The position numbers were made by a program, and so were the translations under genes. Shown piece after piece: positions 9,355-64,000 of a DNA stretch of 64,000 nucleotides. The stretch comes from Noviherbaspirillum suwonense (GTDB lineage Bacteria > Pseudomonadota > Gammaproteobacteria > Burkholderiales > Burkholderiaceae_D): the NCBI RefSeq assembly GCF_900182955.1, contig NZ_FXUL01000010.1:62001-126000 (forward strand), given 5' to 3'. The notes under the pieces were generated by a model that was not told the origin of the DNA, ran no database searches, and saw nothing but the letters and a program-made list of their open reading frames with translations. Each line of letters begins with the position of its first letter. Position 1 is the stretch's first letter.

Positions 9355-10020
9355 CTACTCCCCTGCCCTGGCGATGACGACCAGGTGCCGTTCGGCATCC
9401 AGCCCGGGCACGGCCAGCGGCGTCTTTTCCAGCACGCGCCATTCGGCCGGCAGGCGGCCGGTCTCGTCGCTGCCGGCAATGCCCTTCATCGCGATGAAGC
9501 GCCCGCCTTCGGCGAGCAGGTGGCCGGACCAGTTCACGAAGTCGGACAGGTCGGCGAATGCGCGGGAAGTGATCACATCGAAAGGCTGTCCGACCTGCAG
9601 CGCCTCTACCCTCCCGGTATGGACCGTGACATTGGACAGGCCGAGTTCTGCCTTCACCTGGGTCAGGAAGGCGGTCTTCTTGCTGACGGTATCGATCATC
9701 GCGATGCGCATGTCGGGACGCGCTTCCTGCGCCCAGATTGCCAGCACCATGCCGGGCAAGCCGCCGCCGGAGCCGACATCGAGCACCCGCGTCGCGGAGA
9801 CGAAGGCCGGGACCGCGGCCAGCGAATCGAGCAGGTGCTGCACAACCATCTGCGCCGGGTCGCGCACGGCGGTCAGGTTGTAGACCGCATTCCATTTCGC
9901 CAGCAGCGCAAGATAGTCGAGCAGGCGTTCGAACTGCGTATCGCTGAGCGTGACCGGCAAGGCGGCCGCGCCTTTCCTGAGCGCGTCCGACAATGCCGGG
10001 CGATCGAAAGCCTTGGCCAT
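9355..10020 (-). CDS. rsmG: 16S rRNA (guanine527-N7)-methyltransferase
   Basis: RsmG (GidB) methylates G527 of 16S rRNA using SAM; loss gives low-level streptomycin resistance in other bacteria. The 221 residues carry the Rossmann SAM motif VLDVGSGGGLPGMVLAI and the family segment NLTAVRDPAQMVVQHLLDSL. The ATG overlaps the mnmG stop by one base (TGATG), so the two genes are translationally coupled. Confidence 0.96.
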   Translation of the reverse strand: MAKAFDRPALSDALRKGAAALPVTLSDTQFERLLDYLALLAKWNAVYNLTAVRDPAQMVVQHLLDSLAAVPAFVSATRVLDVGSGGGLPGMVLAIWAQEARPDMRIAMIDTVSKKTAFLTQVKAELGLSNVTVHTGRVEALQVGQPFDVITSRAFADLSDFVNWSGHLLAEGGRFIAMKGIAGSDETGRLPAEWRVLEKTPLAVPGLDAERHLVVIARAGE

Positions 10021-11954
10021 CAGGCAGCGGCCGGCGACGCCGGCACCGATGCAAATTCGCGGAAGCCGCCCTTTTTCAGGTGAACCAGCAGCAGCGAAAT
10101 GGCTGCGGGCGTGACGCCAGCGATGCGCGATGCCTGGCCCAGCGTTTCCGGCTGGTGCTTGTTGAGCTTCTGCCGCACTTCCATCGACAGCGCCTTGACC
10201 TGCATGTAGTCGAGTTCGGGCGGCAGCTTCAGGTTTTCGAAGTGCTCGTGCCGCTCCACTTCCTTGGCCTGGCGGTCGATGTAGCCCGCGTATTTCAACT
10301 GGATTTCGATCTGCTCGCGCACGGCGTCCGGCAATGTCTGCTCGGCGGTAAATTTCTTGCCGTCAATTGACTGCATGGTCATCAACTTCTGATAGTCGAC
10401 GTTCGGGCGTCTCAGCAGGTCCGCCAGGTTGTATTCCCGTTCGATGGCCTTGCCCAGCACGCGCTCGGATTCCGCGTCCGCGATCAGCCTGGGGCTGACC
10501 CAGGTCGACTTGAGACGTTCGATTTCACGTGAAACCGCTTCGCGTTTTTCCTCGAACATCTGCCACTGGCGATCGCTGACACAGCCCAGCTTGCGGCCGA
10601 TTTCGGTCAGCCGCATGTCGGCATTGTCTTCCCGCAGGCTCAGGCGGAATTCGGCGCGGCTGGTGAACATCCGGTACGGCTCGGCGACGCCCTGGGTGAT
10701 CAGGTCGTCGACCAGCACGCCCAGGTAGGCTTCGTCGCGGCGCGGCGTCCATGCTTCCCTGCCCTGCGTCTGCAGCGCGGCATTAAGGCCTGCCAGCATG
10801 CCTTGCGCGGCTGCTTCCTCGTAGCCGGTGGTGCCGTTGATCTGGCCGGCGAAGAACAGTCCCTGGATCGCCCTTGTCTCGAGCGATGCCCGCAGGCCGC
10901 GCGGGTCGAAGTAGTCATACTCGATCGCATAGCCGGGACGCAGGATATGCGCGTTCTCCAGGCCGACCATCGAGCGCACCAGTTCAAGCTGCACGTCGAA
11001 TGGCAGGCTGGTGGAAATGCCGTTCGGGTAAAACTCGTTGGTCGTCAATCCTTCGGGCTCGAGGAAGATCTGGTGTGATTCCTTGTCGGCGAAGCGATGG
11101 ATCTTGTCCTCGATGGAAGGACAGTAGCGCGGCCCGACGCCTTCGATGACGCCGGTGTACATCGGACTGCGATCCAGGCCGCCGCGAATCACATCATGCG
11201 TGCGGGCATTGGTATGCGTGACCCAGCAAGGCACCTGCCGCGGGTGCATCGCCGTATTGCCCAGCACCGAGAAGACCGGCACCGGATCGAGATCGCCAGG
11301 CTGTTCGGCGAGCCGAGAGAAGTCGATGCTGCGGCCATCGATGCGCGGCGGCGTCCCGGTTTTCAGCCGTCCTTGCGGCAGCTTCAATTCCTTCAGCCGC
11401 GCCGACAGCGAGACCGCGGGCGGATCGCCGGCACGGCCTGCCGCGTAATTATTCAGGCCGACGTGGATCTTCCCATCCAGGAATGTGCCGGCGGTAAGCA
11501 CCACCGCCCTGCCCCGGAACTGGATACCGACCTGCGTGACGGCGCCAACGACCCGGTCGCCCTCGACCATCAGGTCGTCCACCGCCTGCTGGAACAGCCA
11601 CAGGTTGGGCTGGTTTTCCAGGCGGGACCGGATTGCCTGCTTGTACAAGATGCGGTCGGCCTGCGCGCGGGTTGCGCGCACGGCCGGGCCCTTGGACGAA
11701 TTAAGGATGCGGAACTGGATGCCGGCTTCGTCGGTGGCGATAGCCATCGCGCCGCCCATCGCATCGACTTCCTTGACCAGGTGGCCCTTGCCGATGCCGC
11801 CGATGGACGGATTGCAGGACATCTGGCCCAGCGTTTCTATATTGTGCGTGAGCAGCAGGGTTTTCTGGCCCATGCGGGCAGAAGCAAGCGCCGCCTCGGT
11901 GCCGGCGTGGCCGCCACCAACGACGATGACATCAAATTCGGTAGGAAATAACAT
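10020..11954 (-). CDS. mnmG: tRNA uridine-5-carboxymethylaminomethyl modification enzyme MnmG
   Basis: FAD protein that, with MnmE, makes the cmnm5 or nm5 modification at the wobble U34 of several tRNAs. The 644 residues are full length: the N-terminal dinucleotide fold [19 protein letters not shown], the family block [20 protein letters not shown], and the C-terminal helical domain that binds MnmE. Its partner mnmE lies at about 59 kb in this window. A parS-like site lies inside the coding region at 10521-10536 and two more lie upstream. Confidence 0.97.
10521..10536. promoter_or_regulatory. Third, weaker parS-like site inside mnmG
   Basis: GATTTCACGTGAAACC contains the full 12-bp palindromic parS core TTTCACGTGAAA and matches the 16-bp consensus TGTTTCACGTGAAACA at 13 positions. 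It lies within the mnmG reading frame, about 1.5 kb from the two sites upstream of mnmG. Coding-region parS sites are known in other species. Confidence 0.65.
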
Positions 11955-12041: not shown

Positions 12042-12057
12042 TGTTTCACGTGAAACA
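12042..12057. promoter_or_regulatory. parS: parS site 1 (ParB-binding centromere)
   Basis: TGTTTCACGTGAAACA is a perfect match to the universal 16-bp chromosomal parS consensus. It lies in the mnmG-TauE spacer about 3.3 kb from parA and 4.2 kb from parB. Confidence 0.95.
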
Positions 12058-12078
12058 AACATCGGACTGCATTTGTAT

Positions 12079-12094
12079 TGTTTCACGTGGAACA
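12079..12094. promoter_or_regulatory. parS: parS site 2
   Basis: TGTTTCACGTGGAACA differs from the consensus at one position. Its centre is 37 bp from that of site 1, so the two ParB clamps would load three to four helical turns apart. Confidence 0.92.
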
Positions 12095-22655: not shown

Positions 22656-23531
22656 ATGGACTTTTCCCAGATGCGTGCCTTCGCCGCGATTGCCGCCGAA
22701 GGAAATCTAACCCGCGCCGCCGAGCGGCTCCACCTGACGCAGCCTGCGGTCAGCCTGCAATTGAAGTCCCTGCAATCCACGCTGGGCCTGCAGTTATTCA
22801 CGCGCACATCGACCGGCATGGTGCTGACCGACGACGGCGCAAAGTTGCTGCCCTTCGCAGAGCGGGTCCTGGCCAGCATCGCCGAATTCCGCCAGGGCGC
22901 CGACGCGCTGCATTCCACCCTGTCCGGCACCCTGTCGATCGGCACGATACTCGACCCCGAATTCATCCGGCTCGGCGCATTCCTCAAGCGCCTGGTCGAA
23001 AGTTATCCGCAGATTTCGACCCGGCTGCAGCACGGGATGTCCGGTTCGGTGCTGCAGCAGGTGCGCAGCGGCGCGCTGGATGCCGGCTTTTATCTCGGCA
23101 CGCCCGGCAAGGAATGCGATTACCAGGTCCTTACTTCCTTTAATTATTACGTGCTTGCGCCCCACGGCTGGAAGCACCGGGTCGTCGGACGCGACTGGGC
23201 GGCGCTGGCAAAGCTGCCGTGGATCTGGACGCCTCCCGAATCGGCCCATAACCGGCTGCTCAGCAAGGTGTTCAACAGCCATAAAGTCATGCCGCACAAG
23301 GTGGCGCTGGTCGACCAGGAGCCATCGATGCTCGACTTGGTCAAGTCCGGGGTCGGCCTGGCGCTCGCCAGGGAATCGATTGCCTTGCGTGAAGCGCATG
23401 CGCACGGCCTGGTCATTGCCGACCAGGTCAGCATCGCCGCCGAATTGAGCTTTATTTGCCAGGCAAAACGCCGTCACGAACCCCTGATCGAAGCGGTATT
23501 CGCGCTGTTGAAATCTGTCTGGGACCGCTGA
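22656..23531 (+). CDS. LysR family transcriptional regulator
   Basis: A 291-residue LysR regulator. N-terminal winged helix MDFSQMRAFAAIAAEGNLTR followed by AAERLHLTQPAVSLQLKSLQ, then the effector-binding domain with the hinge near residue 90. It is divergent from mmsA with 135 bp between the starts, which suggests that it controls mmsA and perhaps the GMC oxidoreductase. The effector cannot be told. Its 3' end borders the candidate origin region. Confidence 0.92.
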   Translation: MDFSQMRAFAAIAAEGNLTRAAERLHLTQPAVSLQLKSLQSTLGLQLFTRTSTGMVLTDDGAKLLPFAERVLASIAEFRQGADALHSTLSGTLSIGTILDPEFIRLGAFLKRLVESYPQISTRLQHGMSGSVLQQVRSGALDAGFYLGTPGKECDYQVLTSFNYYVLAPHGWKHRVVGRDWAALAKLPWIWTPPESAHNRLLSKVFNSHKVMPHKVALVDQEPSMLDLVKSGVGLALARESIALREAHAHGLVIADQVSIAAELSFICQAKRRHEPLIEAVFALLKSVWDR

Positions 23532-23556
23532 AATTCCTTGAATTTCAAGAGCTTGC

Positions 23557-23805
23557 GCTGTGGATAAGCCTAAGGATATCTATTGGGCGGGCTGTGCATA
23601 ATCCGGGTTTACAGAAAAACACTTTTTTTGTCCAGAAGCTGTCACGCGGACATACAGCGCTTATCCACTCTTTATTCAATAGCTAAGTCGTTGAATGTTC
23701 GACGGTTTACAGGGTTGCGCACAGATTTTCCCGCCGGTTAACACTACTACTATATATGTATACAGACCTTTAAAATAAAACCCGAATCCCTTCATGACGG
23801 CAGTG
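23557..23805. other. Left half of candidate chromosomal origin: DnaA-box cluster plus AT-rich element
   Basis: The 298-bp spacer 23532-23829 holds two perfect matches to the DnaA box TTATNCACA on the minus strand (complements of 23559-23567 and 23593-23601), TTATCCACT at 23661-23669 and a weak TTGCGCACA at 23715-23723. These are followed by a GC-rich stretch (CCCGCCGG), the ACTACTACTA element and an AT-rich run to about 23790. The order box, GC-rich, TAC-type trinucleotides, AT-rich is that of the basal unwinding element with DnaA-trios known from Bacillus subtilis. Origin function is inference. Confidence 0.6.
23736..23770. repeat. Left arm of a 35-bp inverted repeat around the nucleosidase gene
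   Basis: Reads GGTTAACACTACTACTATAT and then ATGTATACAGACCTT. Its reverse complement matches 24649-24683 at about 29 positions with two single-base gaps; GTTAAC, the ACTACTACTAT block, GTATACA and ACCTT are shared. The arms are about 880 bp apart. Confidence 0.85.
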
Positions 23806-23829
23806 AACAGCCATTTCAGGAACAAAAAC

Positions 23830-24612
23830 ATGCAAAAAAAACCGATCAGGCTGGGCATTGTCAGTGCGCTTCGCGAGGAACAGACGGGACTGCTCGCGCA
23901 GATGCGCGACATGAAAACGGTGACACGCGGCATGCGCGACTATCTTCATGGAAACTTATGGGGAGTCGACTGTGTCTGCGTCCTGTCCCGGCTCGGAAAA
24001 GTTGCATCGGCAACAACTGTTGCAACGCTGATCGAGCGTTTCGATGTGTCGGCGGTCGTTTTTACCGGCGTCGCCGGATCGGCCGACCCCGATGTAAAGG
24101 TCGGTGATGTCGTCATTGCCGAAAGCCTGGTCCAGCATGACATGGATACCCGGCCGCTTTTTCCGCGATTCGAAATCCCGCTGACGGGACAGTCCAGATT
24201 TGCAAGCGATGTCGGATTAAGCGAAAAATTGCATCGCGCCGCCAGTTTGTTCCTGGAAAACGACTTGAAATCGGCCATCTCATTAACGCAGCAGCAGATT
24301 TTTGGCCTGCATCGGCCGCGCGTGCATCGCGGACTGATCGCGAGCGGCGATGAATTCATCGGCAGCACCGCCCGGCTGCGGGAATTAAGGGAAGATTTTC
24401 CGGATTTGCTTGCCGTGGAAATGGAAGGCGCGGCCGTTGCCCAGGTCTGTTTCGAATTCGGCATCCCCTTTTCGGTAATCCGCACGATTTCCGATGGCGC
24501 CGACGAGACATCGGCGATCGATTTTCTGGCATTCATCCGTGAAGTCGCAGCTGTTTATGCCTTTCATACCACCAGGCGCTTGTGCTCGATTCTGGTTGAA
24601 GACGGTTGTTAA
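23830..24612 (+). CDS. 5'-methylthioadenosine/S-adenosylhomocysteine nucleosidase-like protein
   Basis: A 260-residue member of the purine nucleosidase family (MtnN/Pfs), which cleaves adenine from MTA or SAH. Seen are the N-terminal SALREEQ with Glu17 aligned to catalytic Glu12, FTGVAGSADPDVKVGDVVIA, ASGDEFIGS, and AVEMEGAAVAQVCFEFGIPF with Glu199 (Glu174 of E. coli) and ISDGAD with Asp222 (Asp197). All three catalytic residues are kept. It is about 28 residues longer than E. coli MtnN. The start MQKKPIRLG has AGGAAC upstream; an ATG at 23794 lacks a ribosome site. Codon use looks less GC-biased than the neighbours. It sits between the two halves of the candidate origin. Confidence 0.88.
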   Translation: MQKKPIRLGIVSALREEQTGLLAQMRDMKTVTRGMRDYLHGNLWGVDCVCVLSRLGKVASATTVATLIERFDVSAVVFTGVAGSADPDVKVGDVVIAESLVQHDMDTRPLFPRFEIPLTGQSRFASDVGLSEKLHRAASLFLENDLKSAISLTQQQIFGLHRPRVHRGLIASGDEFIGSTARLRELREDFPDLLAVEMEGAAVAQVCFEFGIPFSVIRTISDGADETSAIDFLAFIREVAAVYAFHTTRRLCSILVEDGC

Positions 24613-24648
24613 CACCCCTGCCGACGAAAAGCCGTTGTTTATTTAATT

Positions 24649-24683
24649 AAGGTTGTATACCCAAATAGTAGTAGTTGTTAACG
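24649..24683. repeat. Right arm of the 35-bp inverted repeat
   Basis: Starts AAGGTTGTATAC, then AAATAGTAGTAGTTGTTAAC, ending at about 24683. It is the inverted partner of 23736-23770. Confidence 0.85.
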
Positions 24684-24753
24684 CATGCCGCGACCTGTGG
24701 GTAATACTAAAAAAATCAATGAAATCAGTGGCCTGGAGATTTGATAAGACTTG

Positions 24754-24799
24754 CATAAGCCGTGTATGGGCTTATGGGCAATTCTGTACAAGAATTGCC
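24754..24799. other. Two adjacent perfect stem-loops
   Basis: CATAAGCC/GGCTTATG (24754-24761 and 24769-24776, 7-base loop) is followed without a gap by GGCAATTCT/AGAATTGCC (24777-24785 and 24791-24799, loop GTACA). No T-tract follows either. They lie 75 bp before the MFS gene, inside the right half of the candidate origin. Confidence 0.7.
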
Positions 24800-24873
24800 G
24801 GACGGATCGCGCGCGGGTTGTACCCAGTTCATCCACAGCTTATGCAGAGCTTTATCCCCATCCGGAGCGGCCC

Positions 24874-26067
24874 ATGAAAGCGCCGCTGCCGTTGCTGGTA
24901 TCCGGCCTGGGCATCGCACAGATCGTTTCCTGGGGCAGTCTTTACTATCCGATTTCCGTGCTTGGCGAGAGCATGCAGCGCGACCTCGGCGTGTCGTCGA
25001 CGGTCCTGTTCGGCGCATTCACGCTGAGCCTGCTGATCTCCGGCATGGCTGCCCCGATGGTGGGAAGGCTGATGGACGCCCATGGCGCACGCGCGGTGCT
25101 GTGCGCCGGCTCGCTGCTGGCGATGGGTGCGCTGCTGCTCACCGCACGCGCCAGCGGCCCTGTGGGCCTGTACGCGGGCGCCATGCTGTCCGGCGTGGCG
25201 ATGGCGGCCTGCCTGTACGACGCGGCCTTCATGGCGCTGAACCAGCTTGCCGGCGATGCGTATCGCCGGTCGGTGACGGGTCTTACCCTGTTCGGCGGCT
25301 TTGCCAGCACCGTTTCCTGGCCGCTGTCGCAATTCCTGCTCGGCACGGTGGGCTGGCGCGATGCCTTGCTTCTCTATGCCGGCCTGCAACTGGCGCTTTG
25401 CCTGCCGCTGCACGCGCTGCTGCTGCCTGCCCGGACCGGGAAAACGCTTGCCGCGCAGGATGCCGCTCCGGCGGCCGTGGTACTGCCGGACACGCTGTGG
25501 CTGGCCACGGCGTTCGCGCTGGCGAGCTTCGTGCTGTCGGTGCTGTCGGTCCACCTGATCAGCCTGTTCCGGCTGTCCGGCCTGGAAAACGGCAGCGCCG
25601 TATTCATCGCCACGCTGGTCGGACCGATGCAGGTATTGGGACGGCTGCTGGAACTGGGCGCCGGCGGCCGGCTGCGCGCGGTCCATGTCGGCGCCGTGGC
25701 TTTCGCTTCCATGGTGCTGGCCCTCGCCGGCCTGTTCCTGCTGCACGGCGCGTCGCCGCTGGCCTTTGTCATTGCGGGTCTGTACGGGATCAGCAACGGG
25801 CTGATGACCATCGTGCGCGGCGTCGTGCCGGCCGAGCTGTATGGCAGGCGCCATTACGGCCTGCTGCTCGGGCGGCTTGCGCGGCCGGCCTTCGTGGCGC
25901 GCGCGCTGGCGCCGTTCGCCTTTCCGCTCGGGCTGGCCGGGCTGGGCACCGGCGGCGTCGTGCTGGCGCTGGGCGGCGTCGCGGCGCTCGCCTGCTGGAG
26001 CTACCGCGCCGCGCTGCGCGAGGCGGCCGCCGCCGCGGCCGCTACTGCGCCGTCGGCATCAGCGTAG
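24874..26067 (+). CDS. MFS transporter
   Basis: A 397-residue protein with twelve predicted helices. Typical features are the first helix GLGIAQIVSWGSLYYPISVL, the loop between helices 2 and 3 VGRLMDAHGAR (MFS motif A, GxLaDrxGrR type), and twofold N/C symmetry. The IVSWGSLYY start resembles the OFA/monocarboxylate-like MFS group; substrate unknown. The start MKAPLPLLVSGLG has GGAG 7 bp upstream. Its 3' end overlaps the convergent LysR gene by 26 bp. Confidence 0.88.
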   Translation: MKAPLPLLVSGLGIAQIVSWGSLYYPISVLGESMQRDLGVSSTVLFGAFTLSLLISGMAAPMVGRLMDAHGARAVLCAGSLLAMGALLLTARASGPVGLYAGAMLSGVAMAACLYDAAFMALNQLAGDAYRRSVTGLTLFGGFASTVSWPLSQFLLGTVGWRDALLLYAGLQLALCLPLHALLLPARTGKTLAAQDAAPAAVVLPDTLWLATAFALASFVLSVLSVHLISLFRLSGLENGSAVFIATLVGPMQVLGRLLELGAGGRLRAVHVGAVAFASMVLALAGLFLLHGASPLAFVIAGLYGISNGLMTIVRGVVPAELYGRRHYGLLLGRLARPAFVARALAPFAFPLGLAGLGTGGVVLALGGVAALACWSYRAALREAAAAAAATAPSASA

Positions 26068-29771: not shown

Positions 29772-30612
29772 GCAGCGCCTGCCGGTGGAAGTTCAGGTGA
29801 TCTTCCATGAAGGTCGAAATGAAATAATAGCCATGGTCGTAGCCGGCATGGAAGCGCAGGGTCAGCGGCTGCGCGGCCTGCCGGCAGGCCGCCTCGAACA
29901 GCGCCGGCTTCAGCTGGACGTCGAGGAATTGGTCGGACAATCCCTGGTCGATCAATATGCCGGCAGGAAACGGCGTCTGCCGCCGGCTCATCAGCGCGCT
30001 GGCATCGTGTTCGAGCCAACTGTTGCGATCGTCGCCCAAATAACGTGAAAACGCTTTCTCGCCCCAGGGACACTGGGTGGGCGCTGCAATCGGCGCAAAG
30101 GCGGAAACCGAGCAGAACAGGTCCGGATGCCGCAGCGCCAGGACCAGCGCGCCATGCCCGCCCATCGAGTGGCCAAAGATGCCGACCTTGCGCGGTACGG
30201 TCGCGAACTCCGAGGCGATCAGCGGCAGCAGCTCGCCGACGATATACGACTCCATCCGGAAATGGGAGGCATAGGGCGGCGCGCTGGCGTCGAGGTAGAA
30301 ACCGGCGCCCTCGCCAAAGTCCCAGTCGGCAGTGATGCCGTCGATGCCGGTGTTGCGCGGACTGGTATCGGGCGCGACCAGCATTATGCCGTGCTGCGCC
30401 GCATAGCGCTGCGCCCCGGCCTTGATCATGAAGGTTTCCTCGGTACAGGTCAGGCCGGCCAGGTACACCAGCACGGGTACAGGTCCGGCAGACTGCTGGG
30501 GCGGGCGATAGACGGAAAACCGCATCGGCAAGCCGATCTCGGAAGATGCATGGCGGTAATACGCCTGCGTACCGCCAAAGCAGCCATGTTCGCTGATCAA
30601 TTCCATCTGCAT
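29764..30612 (-). CDS. fghA: S-formylglutathione hydrolase
   Basis: Serine esterase that hydrolyses S-formylglutathione to formate and glutathione, the last step of glutathione-dependent formaldehyde detoxification. The 282 residues show the nucleophile elbow GHSMGGHGAL, the N-terminal ISEHGCFGGTQAYYRHAS typical of the family, LTCTEETFMIKAGAQRYA, and the C-terminal His in FHAGYDHGYYFI. It is 24 bp downstream of frmA, the usual operon. Confidence 0.96.
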   Translation of the reverse strand: MQMELISEHGCFGGTQAYYRHASSEIGLPMRFSVYRPPQQSAGPVPVLVYLAGLTCTEETFMIKAGAQRYAAQHGIMLVAPDTSPRNTGIDGITADWDFGEGAGFYLDASAPPYASHFRMESYIVGELLPLIASEFATVPRKVGIFGHSMGGHGALVLALRHPDLFCSVSAFAPIAAPTQCPWGEKAFSRYLGDDRNSWLEHDASALMSRRQTPFPAGILIDQGLSDQFLDVQLKPALFEAACRQAAQPLTLRFHAGYDHGYYFISTFMEDHLNFHRQALHG

Positions 30613-30636
30613 CGCTTTCTCCTTGGTAAAGCGCCC

Positions 30637-31743
30637 TTAATAGAGCACGACCGAGCGGATCGACTCGCCGCGTTTCATCAGGTCGAATCCTTCGTTGATC
30701 TGGTCCAGGCGCAGGGTATGCGTGATCAGGTCATCGATGTTGAGCTTGCCTTCCATGTACCAGTCGACGATCTTCGGCACGTCCGTGCGTCCGCGGGCGC
30801 CGCCGAATGCCGAGCCTTTCCATACCCGGCCCGTCACCAGCTGGAACGGACGCGTGCTGATTTCCTCGCCCGCGGCCGCGACGCCGATGATGATGGACTG
30901 GCCCCAGCCCTTGTGACAGCACTCGAGCGACTGCCGCATCGTGGTGGTGTTGCCGATGCATTCGAACGAATAGTCGGCGCCGCCGTCGGTCAGCTGGACG
31001 ATATGGTCGACCACATTGGGGACGTCCTTCGGGTTGACGAAGTGCGTCATGCCGAACTTGCGCGCCATCGCTTCCCGCTCGGGATTGAGGTCGACGCCGA
31101 TGATCTTGTCCGCACCGACCATGCGCGCCGCCTGGATCACGTTCAGGCCGATGCCGCCCAGGCCGAACACCACCACATTGGCGCCTGCCTCGACCTTTGC
31201 GGTGAAAAGCACCGCGCCGACGCCGGTCGTCACGCCGCAGCCGATATAGCAAACCTTGTCGAACGGCGCGTCCGGACGGATCTTTGCGACCGCGATTTCA
31301 GGGACCACGATATGGTTGGCGAAGGTCGATGTGCCCATGTAGTGGAAGATCGGCTTGCCGTCGATCGAAAAGCGCGATGTCGCATCCGGCATCAGGCCGC
31401 GTCCCTGCGTGTTGCGTATGGCCTGGCACAGGTTGGTTTTCTGCGACAGGCAGAACTTGCACTGGCGGCATTCGGGTGTGTACAGCGGAATGACATGGTC
31501 GCCGGCGCGCAGCGACTTGACGTCGGGGCCGACATCGACCACGACCCCTGCGCCCTCGTGTCCCAGGATGGAAGGAAAGATCCCCTCGGGATCGGCGCCC
31601 GACAGGGTGTAGTAATCGGTATGGCAGATGCCGGTGGCCTTGACCTCGATCAGCACCTCCCCCGCTTTCGGCCCTTGCAGGTCCACCTCTTCCACGGTCA
31701 ACGGTGCGCCTGCTTTCCACGCGATTGCGGCCTTTGTTTTCAT
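30637..31743 (-). CDS. frmA: S-(hydroxymethyl)glutathione dehydrogenase (class III alcohol dehydrogenase)
   Basis: Oxidises S-hydroxymethylglutathione (formed from formaldehyde) to S-formylglutathione with NAD. The 368 residues contain catalytic-zinc ligands (ICHTDYYTLSG, GHEGAGVVVDVG), the structural zinc cysteines (CRQCKFCLSQKTNLC) and the Rossmann motif GLGGIGLNVIQAARM. It also reduces nitrosoglutathione in relatives. It heads the frmA-fghA unit; an inverted repeat lies just upstream. Confidence 0.96.
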   Translation of the reverse strand: MKTKAAIAWKAGAPLTVEEVDLQGPKAGEVLIEVKATGICHTDYYTLSGADPEGIFPSILGHEGAGVVVDVGPDVKSLRAGDHVIPLYTPECRQCKFCLSQKTNLCQAIRNTQGRGLMPDATSRFSIDGKPIFHYMGTSTFANHIVVPEIAVAKIRPDAPFDKVCYIGCGVTTGVGAVLFTAKVEAGANVVVFGLGGIGLNVIQAARMVGADKIIGVDLNPEREAMARKFGMTHFVNPKDVPNVVDHIVQLTDGGADYSFECIGNTTTMRQSLECCHKGWGQSIIIGVAAAGEEISTRPFQLVTGRVWKGSAFGGARGRTDVPKIVDWYMEGKLNIDDLITHTLRLDQINEGFDLMKRGESIRSVVLY

Positions 31744-31763
31744 GCTGGATCCTTTTTGTTATT

Positions 31764-31779
31764 GACACGTCGGTGTGTC
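31764..31779. promoter_or_regulatory. Inverted repeat upstream of frmA, candidate operator
   Basis: GACAC (31764-31768) and GTGTC (31775-31779) form an inverted repeat 21 bp upstream of the frmA ATG. The flanks TTG and GAA extend it imperfectly. The 216-bp frmA/haemagglutinin spacer (31744-31959) holds no gene. No FrmR or LysR-type formaldehyde regulator is next to it. Confidence 0.4.
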
Positions 31780-31959
31780 GAATTTCCGGTTCGGGTGAGT
31801 ATAAACGAAGGCGCAAGTAACCATATTCGACCAGCGGACGGTGCGTTGATTGCATTAATTATTAGCCGAATTGCTAATGATTGTTCTGCGGGACCGGATC
31901 GGCACATAGATTCGAAGGTCGCTGTTCTGTCCGACGCGCCGCATCCAGGAGACGTCTCC

Positions 31960-34900
31960 ATGATTACCTGCCCTCCCCACGCTTCCTCCCTGCCTGCTCC
32001 AGGCAAAAAAATCGAAAGAATCCGCTGCCTGCCCGCGCCATTGTCGCTGGCCATCGCCTGCCTGTATTCGACTTCCGCCCAGGCGCTGCCGCAGAATCCC
32101 ACCACGGTGTCCGGCAAGGTCAGCATCACCACCGCCAACCAGGCAATGCAGGTCAACCAGACGACGAACAAGGCCATTATCGAATGGCAGAAGTTCGGCG
32201 TCGCATCCAACGAGTCGGTCACCTTCAACCAGCCGTCCAGGTCGTCGGTGATACTGAACCGGGTAAGCGGCATGGAAACCAGCGCGCTGGACGGCATGCT
32301 CAATGCGACCGGCCAGGTATTCATCGTCAACCCCAACGGCGTATTGATAGGCCCCACCGCGCGCGTCAATGCGGGCGGCCTGCTGGCATCCACGCTGGCG
32401 ATCGAAAACCAGCGTTTCCTCAACAGCGATTTCACCTTCGCCGCCAGGTCCGACAGCGACAAGGCGCCGGTTGGCAATGCCGGTTCGGTCACCGCAGTTG
32501 ACGGCGGCTATGTCATCCTGCTGGCCAATAACGTCCGCAATAGCGGCACGATCGATGCCCCTGCCGGCCATGTGCTGATGGGCGCCGGGAGCAAGGCCAC
32601 GCTGTACCTCAGCGACCAGTCCCTGCTGGGCTATCGCATCGACGCCGGCTCCGCCGCGGCCCTGGTCGAAAATGCCGGCAGAATCAGGGCGGACGGCGGC
32701 AAGGTGACGCTGGCGGCAAGTGGCATCAGCGGCGCCAGCCAGCTCGCGAGCGCAGCGGTCAATCACAGCGGCATCATCGAGGCGAAGACGCTGAACGGCA
32801 AGGCAGGCGCCATCGTGCTGTCGGGCGACATGCAGGCGGGACGGGTGTCTGTCACCGGCAGGCTCGACGCGTCTGCTCAGGCAGGCGTCGGGGGCACCAT
32901 AGACACGTCTGCGGCTGTCGTCGCTGTCGGCAGCAATGCCAGCATATCCACCGAATCGGTGTCGGGAGCGACAGGCTTGTGGACAGCGACATCGCTCAAC
33001 CCTGTCATTGGCGGGGACAGGGACAGCATTTCCAATACAGTATTAGCCAAAGCGCTGGACAAGAGCAATGTGACGGTAAGCGCCTATGGAAACGGCACGG
33101 GCACGAGCGGCAGCCTGTCTATCGCCGGTGAAATCGACGCGCGGGGAAAGCACAAGCTGATGGTGAAGGCGACGCACGACGTGCTGGTCGCTGCGCCGGT
33201 GACCGTAGGCAGTGGTGGATTCGCCGCCCGGGCGGACAGTGACGGCTCCGGCGAAGGCGCGGTGAAGTTCGACGCTGCCGCCACGATCCGCGGAAACGAT
33301 GGCGCGCCGATAGACATCTACACCAATGTCCCAAGCTACAGCGACACGTCCCGCTATGACGGCTTCATCACCTCGCCATACCGCCTGTGGATGCTGGTCA
33401 ACAACGCAGGCCAGCTGCAGGACATGCAGTCCAACCTCTCCGGCAACTATGCGCTGGGCAGGGATATCGATGCCGCCGGAACAGCCGCATGGAACGGCGG
33501 CGCCGGATTCCGGCCGATAGGACTTGACCGGAAGCGGTTCGATGGCCAGCTCGACGGCATGAGCCACGTCATTTCCAATCTCACGATCAACCGTCCCCGC
33601 AACGACTACGTCGGCCTCTTTTCCGAAATGACGGGCACCGTCATGAACCTGGGCCTGCGGAATGTCCATGTGACGGCGAACAGCCATGCCGGCGCCTTTG
33701 CCGGCTACAACGGCGGCACGCTGAAGAATGTCTACGCAACCGGAAGCGTGTCGGTGGACGTGGAGCGCGGATACAGCGAACAGTCCACCAACACCGCCGG
33801 CGGCCTGGTCGGAAGCAATGGCAGGAGTGGAGCCATCAGGGATGCCTATAGCCTGGTCGATGTCGGCGGCGACGCCATCCTCGGGGGAATTGCCGGGACA
33901 AACGAAGGAACGATAGACGGCGTCTACGCGGCGGGCAAGGTGGGAAGGCCCAACTTCGCCGATGAATTATTTGGTATCGGCGGCATCGCCGGCATCAACA
34001 GCGGGCCAGTGAGAAACACGTACTGGACGACCGATGGCACGGGCAAAAACCTGGCTTTCGGCAGCGATCATTCGAGTGTCGACGGCGGCAATTCGGTCCA
34101 TGCACTGACAAACGACGGCCTGCGGACCGCGGAACTCGGCCTGGACTTCGATACGCGCTGGTTCCGCTACGATGGATACACGGCGCCCCTGCTCAGGTCC
34201 TTCCTGAAGCCGCTGACCATCGACGGGATTTCCCGCGAGGTGGACAAGATCTATGACAGCCTTGCCTTCGATTTTCAGCCCGCTTTCCTGTATTCCATCC
34301 CGGAAGCGGCATCCTCTGCACACCTGAATTCACGCAATGACGCAACGCGCGGCGCCCAGGGTTCGGATGTCGGCACGTACAGCAGCGGCACGGTCACGAC
34401 CTTCTGGTCGGATCAGCAGGGCTATTTGATACGCAATCCGATCGTACGGCAAAAAACGATCGTTGCAATCCATGCAAGGCCAATCGTCCTGCAAGCCACC
34501 GCCGACACAAAGTATTTCGATGATTCCATCGTGTCTCCGGCGCTTCCCGGCGTTTCGAACGACAGGAATGAGCGCAATGCTGGCCTGGTAAGCGGCGACG
34601 TCCTGGATGCGGTGCAATCATTCGATGCAAAGGTGGCTGGCGATCGAACGTTAAGTATTTCCTCGGTTGAAATCAAAAACAGCCAGGGGAAAAACGTGAC
34701 GTCGAACTATGAAATAAGCAGGTCCGACGCCATTGGAAAAATAGTGGAGAAGAAGGCCGATACTATTCCTGAAATACCGGTGACGGATGGAGGGAATGGC
34801 AATGGCACGGGTGACGGAAGCGGCGGCGGCACGGGTGGCGGAAACGGCGGCGGCACAGGTGGCGGAAATGGCGGCGGCACGGGCGGTGGAAACGGCGGCG

Positions 34901-35229
34901 GCACGGGCGGTGGAAACGGCGGCGGCGCGGGCGGCGGGAACGGCGTTGGCACGGGCGGCGGAACCAATGGCGGGCTGGGTAGGGGAAGCGGTAATGGCTC
35001 TGGCGGGACTAACGGGGGCGCTAATGGCGGAAATGCCGGCGGGACTCTCGGGTCGCCTGCCGATAGGTCGGGCGAGCAACAGCGAAGCGCTACCCTTTTC
35101 GCCTATCTCGGCGACCGGGGCGAAGACGAACTGAAGAAAAGAAGCCTGGAAAATAGCAAGCTCAGGAATGCCTTTACGTTATCGATACGGGACGGCGGTA
35201 TTCGCGTTCCCGGGGAGACGGCCAGGTAG
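31960..35229 (+). CDS. Filamentous-haemagglutinin-like secreted protein with Gly-rich repeats
   Basis: A 1089-residue predicted exoprotein. Residues 1-42 form a signal peptide ending STSAQA. Residues about 45-300 are the haemagglutinin activity (TPS) domain, with FIVNPNGVLIGPTARVNAGG (NPNG at about 125-128), used for two-partner secretion. About 513-683 carry GLUG-like repeats (AGAFAGYNGGTLKNVYATGS, AGGLVGSNG, LGGIAGTNEG). About 749-933 resemble YDG/MBG beta modules. About 943-1030 are a Gly-rich octapeptide repeat, then a short charged tail. The start has CCAGGAG upstream. No TpsB partner is in the window. Function: probable adhesin or matrix protein. The frame stays open upstream but that part is antisense to frmA. 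Confidence 0.88.
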   Translation: MITCPPHASSLPAPGKKIERIRCLPAPLSLAIACLYSTSAQALPQNPTTVSGKVSITTANQAMQVNQTTNKAIIEWQKFGVASNESVTFNQPSRSSVILNRVSGMETSALDGMLNATGQVFIVNPNGVLIGPTARVNAGGLLASTLAIENQRFLNSDFTFAARSDSDKAPVGNAGSVTAVDGGYVILLANNVRNSGTIDAPAGHVLMGAGSKATLYLSDQSLLGYRIDAGSAAALVENAGRIRADGGKVTLAASGISGASQLASAAVNHSGIIEAKTLNGKAGAIVLSGDMQAGRVSVTGRLDASAQAGVGGTIDTSAAVVAVGSNASISTESVSGATGLWTATSLNPVIGGDRDSISNTVLAKALDKSNVTVSAYGNGTGTSGSLSIAGEIDARGKHKLMVKATHDVLVAAPVTVGSGGFAARADSDGSGEGAVKFDAAATIRGNDGAPIDIYTNVPSYSDTSRYDGFITSPYRLWMLVNNAGQLQDMQSNLSGNYALGRDIDAAGTAAWNGGAGFRPIGLDRKRFDGQLDGMSHVISNLTINRPRNDYVGLFSEMTGTVMNLGLRNVHVTANSHAGAFAGYNGGTLKNVYATGSVSVDVERGYSEQSTNTAGGLVGSNGRSGAIRDAYSLVDVGGDAILGGIAGTNEGTIDGVYAAGKVGRPNFADELFGIGGIAGINSGPVRNTYWTTDGTGKNLAFGSDHSSVDGGNSVHALTNDGLRTAELGLDFDTRWFRYDGYTAPLLRSFLKPLTIDGISREVDKIYDSLAFDFQPAFLYSIPEAASSAHLNSRNDATRGAQGSDVGTYSSGTVTTFWSDQQGYLIRNPIVRQKTIVAIHARPIVLQATADTKYFDDSIVSPALPGVSNDRNERNAGLVSGDVLDAVQSFDAKVAGDRTLSISSVEIKNSQGKNVTSNYEISRSDAIGKIVEKKADTIPEIPVTDGGNGNGTGDGSGGGTGGGNGGGTGGGNGGGTGGGNGGGTGGGNGGGAGGGNGVGTGGGTNGGLGRGSGNGSGGTNGGANGGNAGGTLGSPADRSGEQQRSATLFAYLGDRGEDELKKRSLENSKLRNAFTLSIRDGGIRVPGETAR
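34798..34965 (+). repeat. 24-bp tandem repeat, seven copies, coding for a Gly octapeptide
   Basis: Seven in-frame 24-bp units (starts at 34798, 34822, 34846, 34870, 34894, 34918, 34942) encode variations of GGGTGGGN. Units 34870 and 34894 are identical. The array can change copy number in steps of eight residues without breaking the frame. Confidence 0.93.
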
Positions 35230-58462: not shown

Positions 58463-59860
58463 CTACTTCCCGATGCAGAAGCGGCTGAAGATCACGCCCA
58501 GCAGATCGTCCGACGTGAACGCGCCGGTGATGCTGTTGAGCCTGTCCTGCGCCAGCCGCAGTTCCTCGGCAAACAGGTCCAGCGCCTGGTCGTTCTGCGC
58601 TGCCAGCTCGGCTGCCATGTCCAGGTGTTCGCGCGCGGCCTTCAGCGCCACCAGGTGCCGCTCCCGCGCCAGGTACAGTGATTCGCCGGTCTGCTGCCAG
58701 CCGGCGATGCGCAGCAGTTCGGCGCGCAGCAGGTGCAGGCCGGTATGGTCGGTGGCGGACAGGTAGATGTGGGTCGCATCCGGCAGCTGCTCGATGTCGG
58801 CGCGGTGCCCGGACAGGTCGATCTTGTTCCACAGCCGGATCACCGGCACGTTCGGCGGAAAGCGCTCGACGATTTTGTCGTCTGCCCTGGTCGGGCCGCG
58901 GCTGGCGTCCAGCATGTGCAGGATCACGTCCGCATCGCGCACCGCGCCCCAGGTGCGTTCGATGCCGATGCGCTCGACTTCATCGCTGGCGTCGGCCGCT
59001 TCCCGGATGCCGGCCGTGTCGATGATGTTGATCGGTATCCCCTCGATCTGTATGGTCTCGGTGACCTTGTCGCGGGTGGTGCCGGCGATGGCGGTGACGA
59101 TGGCCACGTCGGACCCGGCCAGCGCATTGAGCAGCGAGGACTTGCCGACATTGGGCTGCCCGGCCAGCACCACGTTGAGGCCGTCGCGCAGCAGCGCGCC
59201 CTGCGCCGCCTGCTCGAACACCTGCTGCAGCGATGCGCGGATGCGCGCGAGCTGGCCGCGGGCGTCGGACTTTTCCAGGAAGTCGATCTCCTCCTCCGGG
59301 AAGTCCAGCGTCGCCTCGACCAGCATGCGCAGGTGGATCACCTGGTCGACCAGGCCATGGATCACCTTCGAGAACACGCCCGACAGCGACTGCGACGCCG
59401 ACTTCGCGGCCGCCTCGGTCGACGCCTCGATCAGGTCGGCCACCGCCTCGGCCTGCGCCAGGTCCAGCTTGTCGTTGAGGAAGGCGCGCTGGGTGAATTC
59501 GCCGGGCTGGGCCAGGCGCAGGCCCACGCCCTGCCCGGCTTCCAGGCAGCGCTGCAGCAGCATCTGCAGGACCACCGGGCCGCCGTGGCCCTGCAGTTCC
59601 AGCACGTCCTCGCCGGTGTAGGAATGCGGCCCCTTGAAAAAGAGGGCCAGGCCCTGGTCGATCACGCTGCCGTCGGCCTGCACGAAGTCGAGATAGGTCG
59701 CATGGCGCGGCGTCAGCAGGCGGCCGGGCGGAAGCGCGCATACCGCCTGCATCACCGGTTCCAGGCCGCGCCCTGACAGCCGCACGACGCCGATGCCGCC
59801 GCGGCCCGGTGCGGTGGCGATGGCGGCGATGGGAGTGGTGTCGGGATTCATGTTGTGCAT
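58463..59860 (-). CDS. mnmE: tRNA modification GTPase MnmE
   Basis: GTPase partner of MnmG in wobble-uridine modification. The 465 residues comprise the folate-binding N-domain starting [20 protein letters not shown], the G domain with [14 protein letters not shown] (G1), IDTAG (G3) and NKID (G4), and the C-terminal CIGK motif with its conserved Cys. An ATG three codons later (59851) is an equally plausible start. Its distance from mnmG (46 kb here) is larger than usual. Confidence 0.97.
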
Positions 59861-62812: not shown

Positions 62813-64000
62813 ATGGAAAATTTCTGGCAGACCTGCTCCGCGCAGCTGGAGCAGGAGCTGACGCCGCAACAGTTCAGCGCATGGATCAAGCCGCTGGCGC
62901 CGCTCGACTTCGAGGACGGCCGCCTGCGCATCGCCGCGCCGAACCGTTTCAAGCTGGACTGGGTGAAAACCCAGTTTGCCAGCCGCATCAGCACGCTGGC
63001 CGCGCAGTTCTGGGAAGCGCCGATCGAAGTGCAGTTCGTGCTCGACCCGCGCATCGGCAATGCGCGCCGGCAAGCCGCCGAAGCCGGCCCGGGTTCGACC
63101 TCGCAGGTGCCGCAGCGGGAAAACGGCGCCGCCAAGGGCGGCATGAACGGCAGCGCCGAGGCGCGCGACCAGGCGGCCGAACTGGCCGACTCGCCCCGCC
63201 GCGAACAGAGCAAGATCAACACCGCGCTGACCTTCGAGAGCTTCGTCACCGGCAAGGCCAACCAGCTCGCGCGGGCAGCCGCGATCCAGGTCGCCAACAA
63301 CCCGGGGATCTCGTACAACCCGCTGTTCCTGTACGGCGGCGTGGGACTGGGCAAGACCCACCTGATCCACGCGATCGGCAACCAGGTGCTGGCGGAAAAC
63401 GCGAACGTGAAAATCCGCTACATCCACGCGGAGCAGTATGTCCGCGACGTGGTGACGGCTTACCAGCGCAAGGGTTTCGACGACTTCAAGCGCTATTACC
63501 ATTCGCTCGACCTGCTGCTGATCGACGATATCCAGTTTTTCGGCGGCAAGAGCCGCACCCAGGAAGAATTCTTCTACGCATTCGAGGCGCTGATCGCGGC
63601 GAAGAAGCAGATCATCATCACCAGCGATACCTATCCGAAGGAAATCACCGGCATGGACGACCGGCTGATTTCCCGCTTCGACTCCGGCCTGACGGTCGCG
63701 GTCGAGCCGCCGGAACTGGAAATGCGGGTCGCCATCCTGCTCAAGAAAGCCGCGTCCGAGGGCGCCGTGCTGTCCGACGACGTCGCCTTCTTCGTCGCCA
63801 AGCACCTGCGCTCCAACGTGCGCGAGCTCGAGGGCGCATTGCGCAAGATCCTCGCCTACTCGCGCTTCCACGGCAAGGACATCACGATCGATGTCGTCAA
63901 GGACGCGCTGAAGGACCTGCTGTCCGTGCAGAACCGGCAGATTTCGGTGGAGAACATCCAGAAGACGGTGGCCGACTTTTTCAATATCAAGGTCGCCGAC
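62813..64000 (+). CDS. dnaA: Chromosomal replication initiator DnaA (5' part, cut by window edge)
   Basis: The first 396 residues are in the window. Domain I starts [20 protein letters not shown], a Gly/Ala-rich linker (domain II, about 85-130) follows, then AAA+ domain III with Walker [11 protein letters not shown], Walker [11 protein letters not shown], sensor 1 IIITSDTYP and the sensor 2 region [12 protein letters not shown]. Domain IV with the DNA-binding helix-turn-helix lies beyond the right edge. The gene would be expected to run about 70 residues further. Confidence 0.98.

Follow-up and report, generated by a model that had tools for sequence, protein, structure and literature searches.

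A very probable chromosomal origin of Noviherbaspirillum suwonense with two mirror-image units around a nucleosidase gene, distant from dnaA

To our knowledge, descriptions of bacterial origins generally assign a chromosome a single unwinding element. The oriC of E. coli, which sits between mnmG and mioC, has one DUE, to which a TTATCCACA box points, with the IHF site on the other side of that box and more boxes beyond. In the model of the B. subtilis type, box-bound DnaA is guided onto the DnaA-trios and opens the adjoining AT-rich run; the BUS survey (B. subtilis oriC and predicted counterparts) gives a box-to-trio spacing with a peak at 10–13 and a limit of 16, with one best candidate per origin kept in nearly all genomes (PMC8287927). 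Bipartite origins, known from B. subtilis, H. pylori and C. difficile, consist of two DnaA-box subregions parted by a gene, which is usually dnaA, with the DUE in one subregion (PMC7561715). When putative double origins were collected by Gao in 2015, there was no evidence for two functional origins per bacterial chromosome (PMC4403523). A paper on Cupriavidus metallidurans reports a skew switch that is accompanied by three perfect boxes and lies ~90 kb from dnaA. In the open-licence literature we found no description of a multi-unit oriC in Oxalobacteraceae; DoriC predictions for this family may exist.

Here we analysed a window of 64,000 nucleotides (G000:C10:62001-126000), lying on a 191-kb contig of the 6.45-Mb draft genome of N. 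suwonense. The region around its nucleosidase gene is very probably the chromosomal oriC, with two complete mirror-image units, A and B, on either side of the MTA/SAH-nucleosidase gene, ~38 kb from dnaA (Table 1). The order of TTATCCACA box, IHF site and further boxes is shared with E. coli oriC, which differs in its one DUE. Like BUS, the units consist of a box, a short spacer, co-directional CTA-type trios and an AT-rich run; unlike BUS, they are present, each complete, two or three times per genome in 96 of the 145 genomes sampled, carry an IHF-like site upstream and, in units with GTTAAC, have a longer box-to-trio distance. As in bipartite origins, two DnaA-box subregions are parted by a gene, but this gene is the nucleosidase gene and not dnaA, and, judged by sequence, each subregion has trios and an AT-run of its own. 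The double origins of Gao 2015 likewise show more than one oriC-like region per bacterial chromosome, but they are few single cases, with the regions far apart or with a duplicated dnaA (PMC4403523).

Table 1. Coordinates of the origin units, their parts and neighbouring features (window positions)
Feature	Position	Strand	Remarks
oriC unit A (LysR side), complete	23556..23788	+	~233 bases; trios toward nucleosidase gene; model R1 match, 138 bits, E 6.3e-40 for genome
Unit A distal DnaA box 1	23559..23567	-	TTATCCACA, perfect
Unit A distal DnaA box 2	23593..23601	-	TTATGCACA, perfect, 34 bases from box 1
Unit A inner DnaA box	23661..23669	+	TTATCCACT, one mismatch
Unit A IHF-like site	23684..23696	+	TAAGTCGTTGAAT, one mismatch to YAANNNNTTGATW
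Unit A trio-proximal box	23715..23723	+	TTGCGCACA, two mismatches
Unit A GTTAAC, then DnaA-trio run	23737..23752	+	ACTACTACTA, three trios, 20 bases past proximal box
Unit A AT-rich run	23753..23788	+	candidate unwinding element, abuts nucleosidase gene
oriC unit B (MFS side), complete	24635..24863	-	trios back toward nucleosidase gene; model R1 match, 124 bits, E 1.5e-35
Unit B AT-rich run	24635..24665	-	candidate unwinding element
Unit B GTTAAC, then DnaA-trio run	24666..24682	-	ACTACTACTA, 21 bases past proximal box
Unit B trio-proximal box	24696..24704	-	TTACCCACA, one mismatch
Unit B IHF-like site	24723..24735	-	CAGGCCACTGATT, two mismatches
Unit B distal box group	24818..24860	+	TTGTACCCA, TCATCCACA, TTATGCAGA, TTATCCCCA
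MTA/SAH nucleosidase (5'-methylthioadenosine/S-adenosylhomocysteine)	23794..24612	+	start 23794 or 23830; NCBIfam PRK05584.1, E 2.4e-82, above cut-off
LysR-type regulator	22656-23531		flank, unit A side
MFS transporter	24874-26067		flank, unit B side
mnmG	10020-11954		
Two parS sites	12042..12094	.	exact to TGTTNCACGTGNAACA; 11.5 kb from unit A, beside mnmG
mnmE	58463-59860		
DnaA domain	63218-63697		38.4 kb from unit B
DnaA-box cluster priA-hemE	-8112 to -7442		G000:C10:53888-54558 (L004 13888-14558); 8.1-7.4 kb left of window

The two units are 53.5% identical to each other, and model R1, a sequence-only model built from 34 units, finds just these two in the own genome (E ≤ 1e-10). Boxes with one mismatch start at 23661 (+), 24696 (-), 24829 (+), 24840 (+) and 24852 (+), and our recount gave the same tally as the preliminary description, with two perfect boxes, five with one mismatch and one with two. 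Seven boxes with at most one mismatch fall within the 525 bases of the two spacers, compared with a mean of 0.55 and a maximum of 4 in 1000 dinucleotide shuffles. The ACTACTACTA runs (23743-23752, +; 24666-24675, -) are both preceded by GTTAAC and followed by an AT-run, and the AT fraction after the trios, in the candidate unwinding elements, is 0.73 and 0.77. IHF-like sites were scored against YAANNNNTTGATW, which we take to be the IHF consensus. Both of the trio/AT modules that had been described head to head around the nucleosidase gene were thus located, and each of the two proved to be a complete origin unit with distal boxes and an IHF-like site of its own; the resemblance to the unwinding module of B. 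subtilis held for the order of the parts and not for the box-to-trio spacing. The extent given for the region, 23557-24860, is right in location and too short at its end, as the second module reaches three bases further; the distance of ~38 kb from dnaA agrees with that of the DnaA domain from this module, and the site does lie between mnmG and mnmE, though these genes stand 46.5 kb apart. Unit A combines a poor proximal box with perfect distal boxes, and unit B degenerate distal boxes with a better proximal box; such differing weak points would fit cooperation of the two units but are not proof of it.

Alignment of the copies showed that the half-modules of the preliminary description belong to a longer unit of ~230 bases. 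It consists of two inverted distal boxes ~34 bases apart, TTTTTGTCCAGAAT, ATACA, an IHF-like CAAGNNNTTGAT and the TTATCCACA box, followed by mixed bases, GTTAAC or GTTTAC, the trios, TATATA/GTATAC and the AT-run. Since the 82 non-redundant units come from a search for boxes and trios and from a model that was derived from this search, their agreement is partly due to selection: the proximal box is perfect in 73 of them, with one mismatch in 7 and two in 2, the mixed spacer after it measures 11–13 bases in 80, GTTWAC is exact in 79, and the AT fraction after the trios has a mean of 0.79. Distal box 1 is perfect in 68 of the 82 units and distal box 2 in just 25. The IHF-like site, which was outside the motif search yet is contained in the model, has at most one mismatch in 73/82 units versus 1/82 in reversed sequence.

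The unit is present in 125 of 145 Oxalobacteraceae genomes (E ≤ 1e-10), with no unit reaching this threshold in the other 20, and it occurs in 40 of 44 genera, 25 of which have two or more units in some member. One copy was found in 29 of the unit-bearing genomes, two in 75 and three in 21, numbers from which strict search filters and draft contigs may hide further copies. Among the 150 best entries, 53 multi-unit genomes comprise 44 with tandem units (33 pairs, 11 triples), 7 with convergent units, the type of the window pair, and 2 with divergent ones, and in these 53 listed genomes the homologous units are at most 4 kb apart. In the family genomes searched alongside the outgroups below, matches at E ≤ 1e-20 form a single cluster per genome; the match in G051 is weak (5e-9). 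As a sequence arrangement, the two-unit architecture is certainly present in the window and is common in Oxalobacteraceae. The preliminary description had called a bipartite arrangement unusual, which does not hold within this family, because two or three units, mostly in tandem, are present in 96 of the 145 genomes sampled; the conservation of boxes and trios in relatives, whose absence it had named as a refutation, is strong. Location, architecture, conservation and copy number of the units can be read directly from the DNA. Outside the family, a genome of family f31 has two convergent units 2.9 kb apart (G258:C2:85663-89061), with a third, weaker match on its contig C7, and unit duplication may therefore extend beyond Oxalobacteraceae.

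The gene between the units encodes a protein whose nearest named relative is that of Noviherbaspirillum soli (72%), and which is matched in 38 of 100 relatives (E ≤ 0.001). The flanking DNA is alike in 9 of the 11 nucleosidase loci of relatives that were read; the exceptions are L015 and L019, in whose genomes (G018, G019) the origin units are present but elsewhere. An apparent flip of the nucleosidase gene between species was dropped, the impression having stemmed from locus orientation; by tblastn, regulator, nucleosidase and MFS genes all point the same way in L124 and L073, just as they do in the window. Elsewhere in the window, a very long open frame (30127-35229) has glycine-rich repeats close to its end and presumably resembles a secreted protein of the filamentous-haemagglutinin type.

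Cumulative GC skew was followed in four relatives (G050, G004, G020, G003) and on the own contig. The first 600 kb of G050 have their minimum at 362,962, 208 bp from the units at 363,170-364,338 and away from both dnaA (position 0.4 kb) and the hemE cluster (position 107 kb); in G004, the minimum of 600 kb falls at 5,417,243, 216 bp from the units at 5,417,459-5,418,042. Ten sparse skew samples in each of these genomes were positive at 1.0–3.5 Mb and negative at 4.0–5.9 Mb in G050, and positive at 0.5–1.5 Mb and negative at 2.0–5.0 Mb in G004. Because the nucleosidase gene of G004, at 5,690 kb, is 272 kb from the units and has no boxes, the skew minimum tracks the unit and not the gene. The minimum of a 400-kb slice of G020 (1,857,888) lies 2.6 kb from the last of its units (1,853,639-1,855,264). 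For G003, which belongs to the same genus, the curve was followed over 400 kb; its lowest point lies 75 kb from the units, which themselves fall within the flat floor of the curve. The skew of the own 191-kb contig is flat. The preliminary description had placed oriC here rather than beside dnaA and had named cumulative GC skew as a check: the minima of G050, G004 and G020, at the units and not at dnaA, support this placement; in G003 and on the own contig, the curve is so flat that it favours neither place. The RY, MK, AT and gene-orientation curves on five stretches were mostly off the units, and their exceptions (MK maxima in G050 and G004, own-contig AT and RY minima ~3 kb away) are not counted as support.

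The terminus and parS offered further position tests, for which dif and parS were searched with sequence words that we take to be their patterns. A first dif pattern, applied to ten genomes, missed G003, G004 and G035, and a second found dif in 18 of 19, all but G035. In all 14 closed genomes scored (10 genera), dif lies opposite the units, with a short arm of 0.465–0.499, computed from lengths that are exact for six genomes and rounded to 0.1 Mb for eight (shift at most ~0.01); this count omits five of the 19, namely G003 and G051 (several contigs), G035 (no dif), and G114 and G149 (weak unit). As the scored genomes are related to each other, no probability was used for this result. The units are closer than dnaA to the dif antipode in 12 of the 14, the exceptions being G020 and G168, and in 8 of the 9 where units and dnaA are clearly apart. 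Each of the five stretches examined (191–600 kb) has sites matching parS with at most one mismatch 6–17 kb from the units, and further sites with two mismatches lie 18 kb (G003) and 31 kb (G050) from them. In the relatives, the units co-locate with the skew minimum, parS and the antipode of dif, and the location of oriC is well supported by these genomes and, in N. suwonense itself, only indirectly.

Measured from the units, dnaA lies at 62–720 kb in nine closed genomes with a readable distance (363 kb in G050, 720 kb in G004), the distance being masked by length rounding in five other closed genomes; for G003 and G035 it comes to about 33 and 19 kb. Seven genomes of the order were searched as outgroups, and the five with a match at E ≤ 1 were examined: the match lies in the dnaA–dnaN spacer in four of them, G089, G096, G073 and G078 (E 0.02), and 413 kb from dnaA in G063, while G080 and G098 gave no match at E ≤ 1. 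The outgroup loci L260, L261 and L263 each have one unit-like match in the dnaA–dnaN spacer, and in L260, 29 bases separate the end of the trios from the presumed start of dnaN. Across a wider sample of the order, 43 of 120 genomes (three of them Oxalobacteraceae) have a match at E ≤ 1e-6, mostly one. Because four of the five outgroups examined have a single match in the dnaA–dnaN spacer, we infer that Oxalobacteraceae probably moved the origin out of this spacer and duplicated it, in that direction.

Copies from the same genome are often less alike than copies from the same position in other genomes. In the lineage of inverted pairs (five genomes), identity is 0.625 and 0.620 for the same position and 0.530 within a genome; the corresponding values are 0.865 and 0.861 versus 0.767 in the tandem genus g28, 0.817 and 0.844 versus 0.656 in g13, and 0.656 and 0.679 versus 0.619 in six Massilia-type arrays. 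FastTree support for the splits between paralogues is 0.845–1.0 at genus level and weak deeper in the tree (0.443 for the widest B group). By these identities, the unit copies are paralogous types older than the species, which suggests selection on both units. The inverted pairs of G166 and G179 (L132, L212) are 97–98% identical within the genome, which suggests recent copying between units, by gene conversion or duplication.

The types also differ in their geometry. Each of the six Massilia-type arrays has GTTAAC in its distal copy and GTTTAC in the copy next to the gene, and the distance from box to trios is 17–21 bases in 54 of 60 GTTAAC units and 13–14 bases in 13 of 19 GTTTAC units. A BUS rule, coded as at least three DnaA-trios at most 16 bases from a box with at most two mismatches (after PMC8287927), selects 21 of the 82 units, of which 7 are among the 60 with GTTAAC, 14 among the 19 with GTTTAC and none among the 3 others. 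It may be that GTTTAC units open the DNA in the classic manner, and that GTTAAC units either assist or open it over a longer reach. Both window units are of the GTTAAC type and neither is selected, their trios starting 20 (A) and 21 (B) bases past the proximal box; they are not filed as BUS because of this spacing, and are best regarded as BUS-like in their predicted working.

Other readings concern the place of the origin. The priA–hemE cluster, 32 kb away and outside the window, is denser than that of the window, with 11 boxes of at most one mismatch (5 perfect and 6 with one mismatch, one palindromic site being counted twice) in AT-rich DNA. A cluster at hemE is conserved in the four relatives examined (8–16 boxes per 1.3 kb in G003, G004, G020 and G050), and a hemE-adjacent second oriC was predicted in Ralstonia pickettii 12D (PMC4403523), but that the true origin is located there is very improbable: skew minima lie about 255 kb (G050), 193 kb (G020) and 329 kb (G004) off the cluster, far from it in these three relatives, no trio-type element was found in it by pattern, and model R1 matches it just at E 0.06 and 0.43. 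We regard it as a candidate DnaA-titrating or reactivating locus. A box cluster was also seen in G050 (G050:C1:349200-350500, L041), with 12 boxes in 1.3 kb, ~13 kb from the units, and weak partial model matches. Functions of this kind might be ascribed to the window boxes themselves, as a locus of the datA/DARS kind that titrates or reactivates DnaA, or as a DnaA-regulated nucleosidase promoter, since the boxes are clustered and unit A abuts the gene start; we give this very little credence, as the units are 272 kb (G004) and 979 kb (G056) from the nucleosidase match, the skew minimum of G004 is at the units, and the trio and AT elements, together with the dnaA–dnaN position in outgroups, suit an origin. 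Least credible of all, and scarcely to be entertained, is an origin in the rpmH–dnaA or dnaA–dnaN spacer. The own genome does have one perfect box near each end of dnaA (62691; 64245, past the window edge), and the Herbaspirillum seropedicae genome paper infers an origin at or near dnaA (PMC3093359), but in G050 and G004 the units, and with them the skew minimum, are far from dnaA, and model R1 has no match at E ≤ 1 at the dnaA spacers of the own genome. In the three relatives tested where the candidates lie far apart, the skew minima speak against origins at the dnaA spacers or at priA–hemE, which we therefore reject.

For an origin at the two units, the mechanism that we propose is carried over from B. 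subtilis and E. coli, and binding of DnaA and IHF as well as opening of the AT-runs are predicted by analogy with these systems. DnaA would bind the distal boxes and the trio-proximal box of each unit, IHF would bend the DNA between them, DnaA would pass from the proximal box onto the TAC trios, and the AT-run past the trios would open, leading to helicase loading. How many units act in this way is judged differently by two readings. That the origin is real but only one unit fires, the other either decaying as a relic or helping by titration or delivery of DnaA, has in our view not far short of an even chance. The silent unit would be likened to the DUE-less half of known bipartite origins (PMC7561715), and each window unit has weak spots (TTGCGCACA in A, TTATCCCCA and TTGTACCCA in B). 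The difference between the types in box-to-trio distance, with the BUS rule selecting 7/60 versus 14/19, the constant GTTTAC of the gene-proximal copy in the Massilia-type arrays, and the single unit in 29 of 125 unit-bearing genomes point the same way. Against a single firing unit stand the trios, GTTWAC and AT-runs kept in both copies across genera, the types older than the species, and the two or three units kept in 96 of 145 genomes; in the window, moreover, both units have GTTAAC and nearly the same spacing, which singles out neither. We put forward only tentatively, with a substantial minority of our confidence, that Oxalobacteraceae have a multi-module oriC in which two or three old, distinct units all open DNA, for example each forming its own bubble or loading one helicase. 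The likeliest explanation for the retention of the old paralogous types is a contribution from each unit, with both opening the DNA equally or with one opening it and the other helping.

The tandem and face-to-face arrangements are natural variants that bear on how many units fire, on once-per-cycle control and on the loading of two helicases. If all units open, Oxalobacteraceae would provide the first natural case of bacterial chromosomes in which several unwinding elements work at one origin. In Oxalobacteraceae, the position of dnaA is a poor guide to oriC, and genome start points set by dnaA, as well as replication-rate estimates that assume dnaA, are therefore off.
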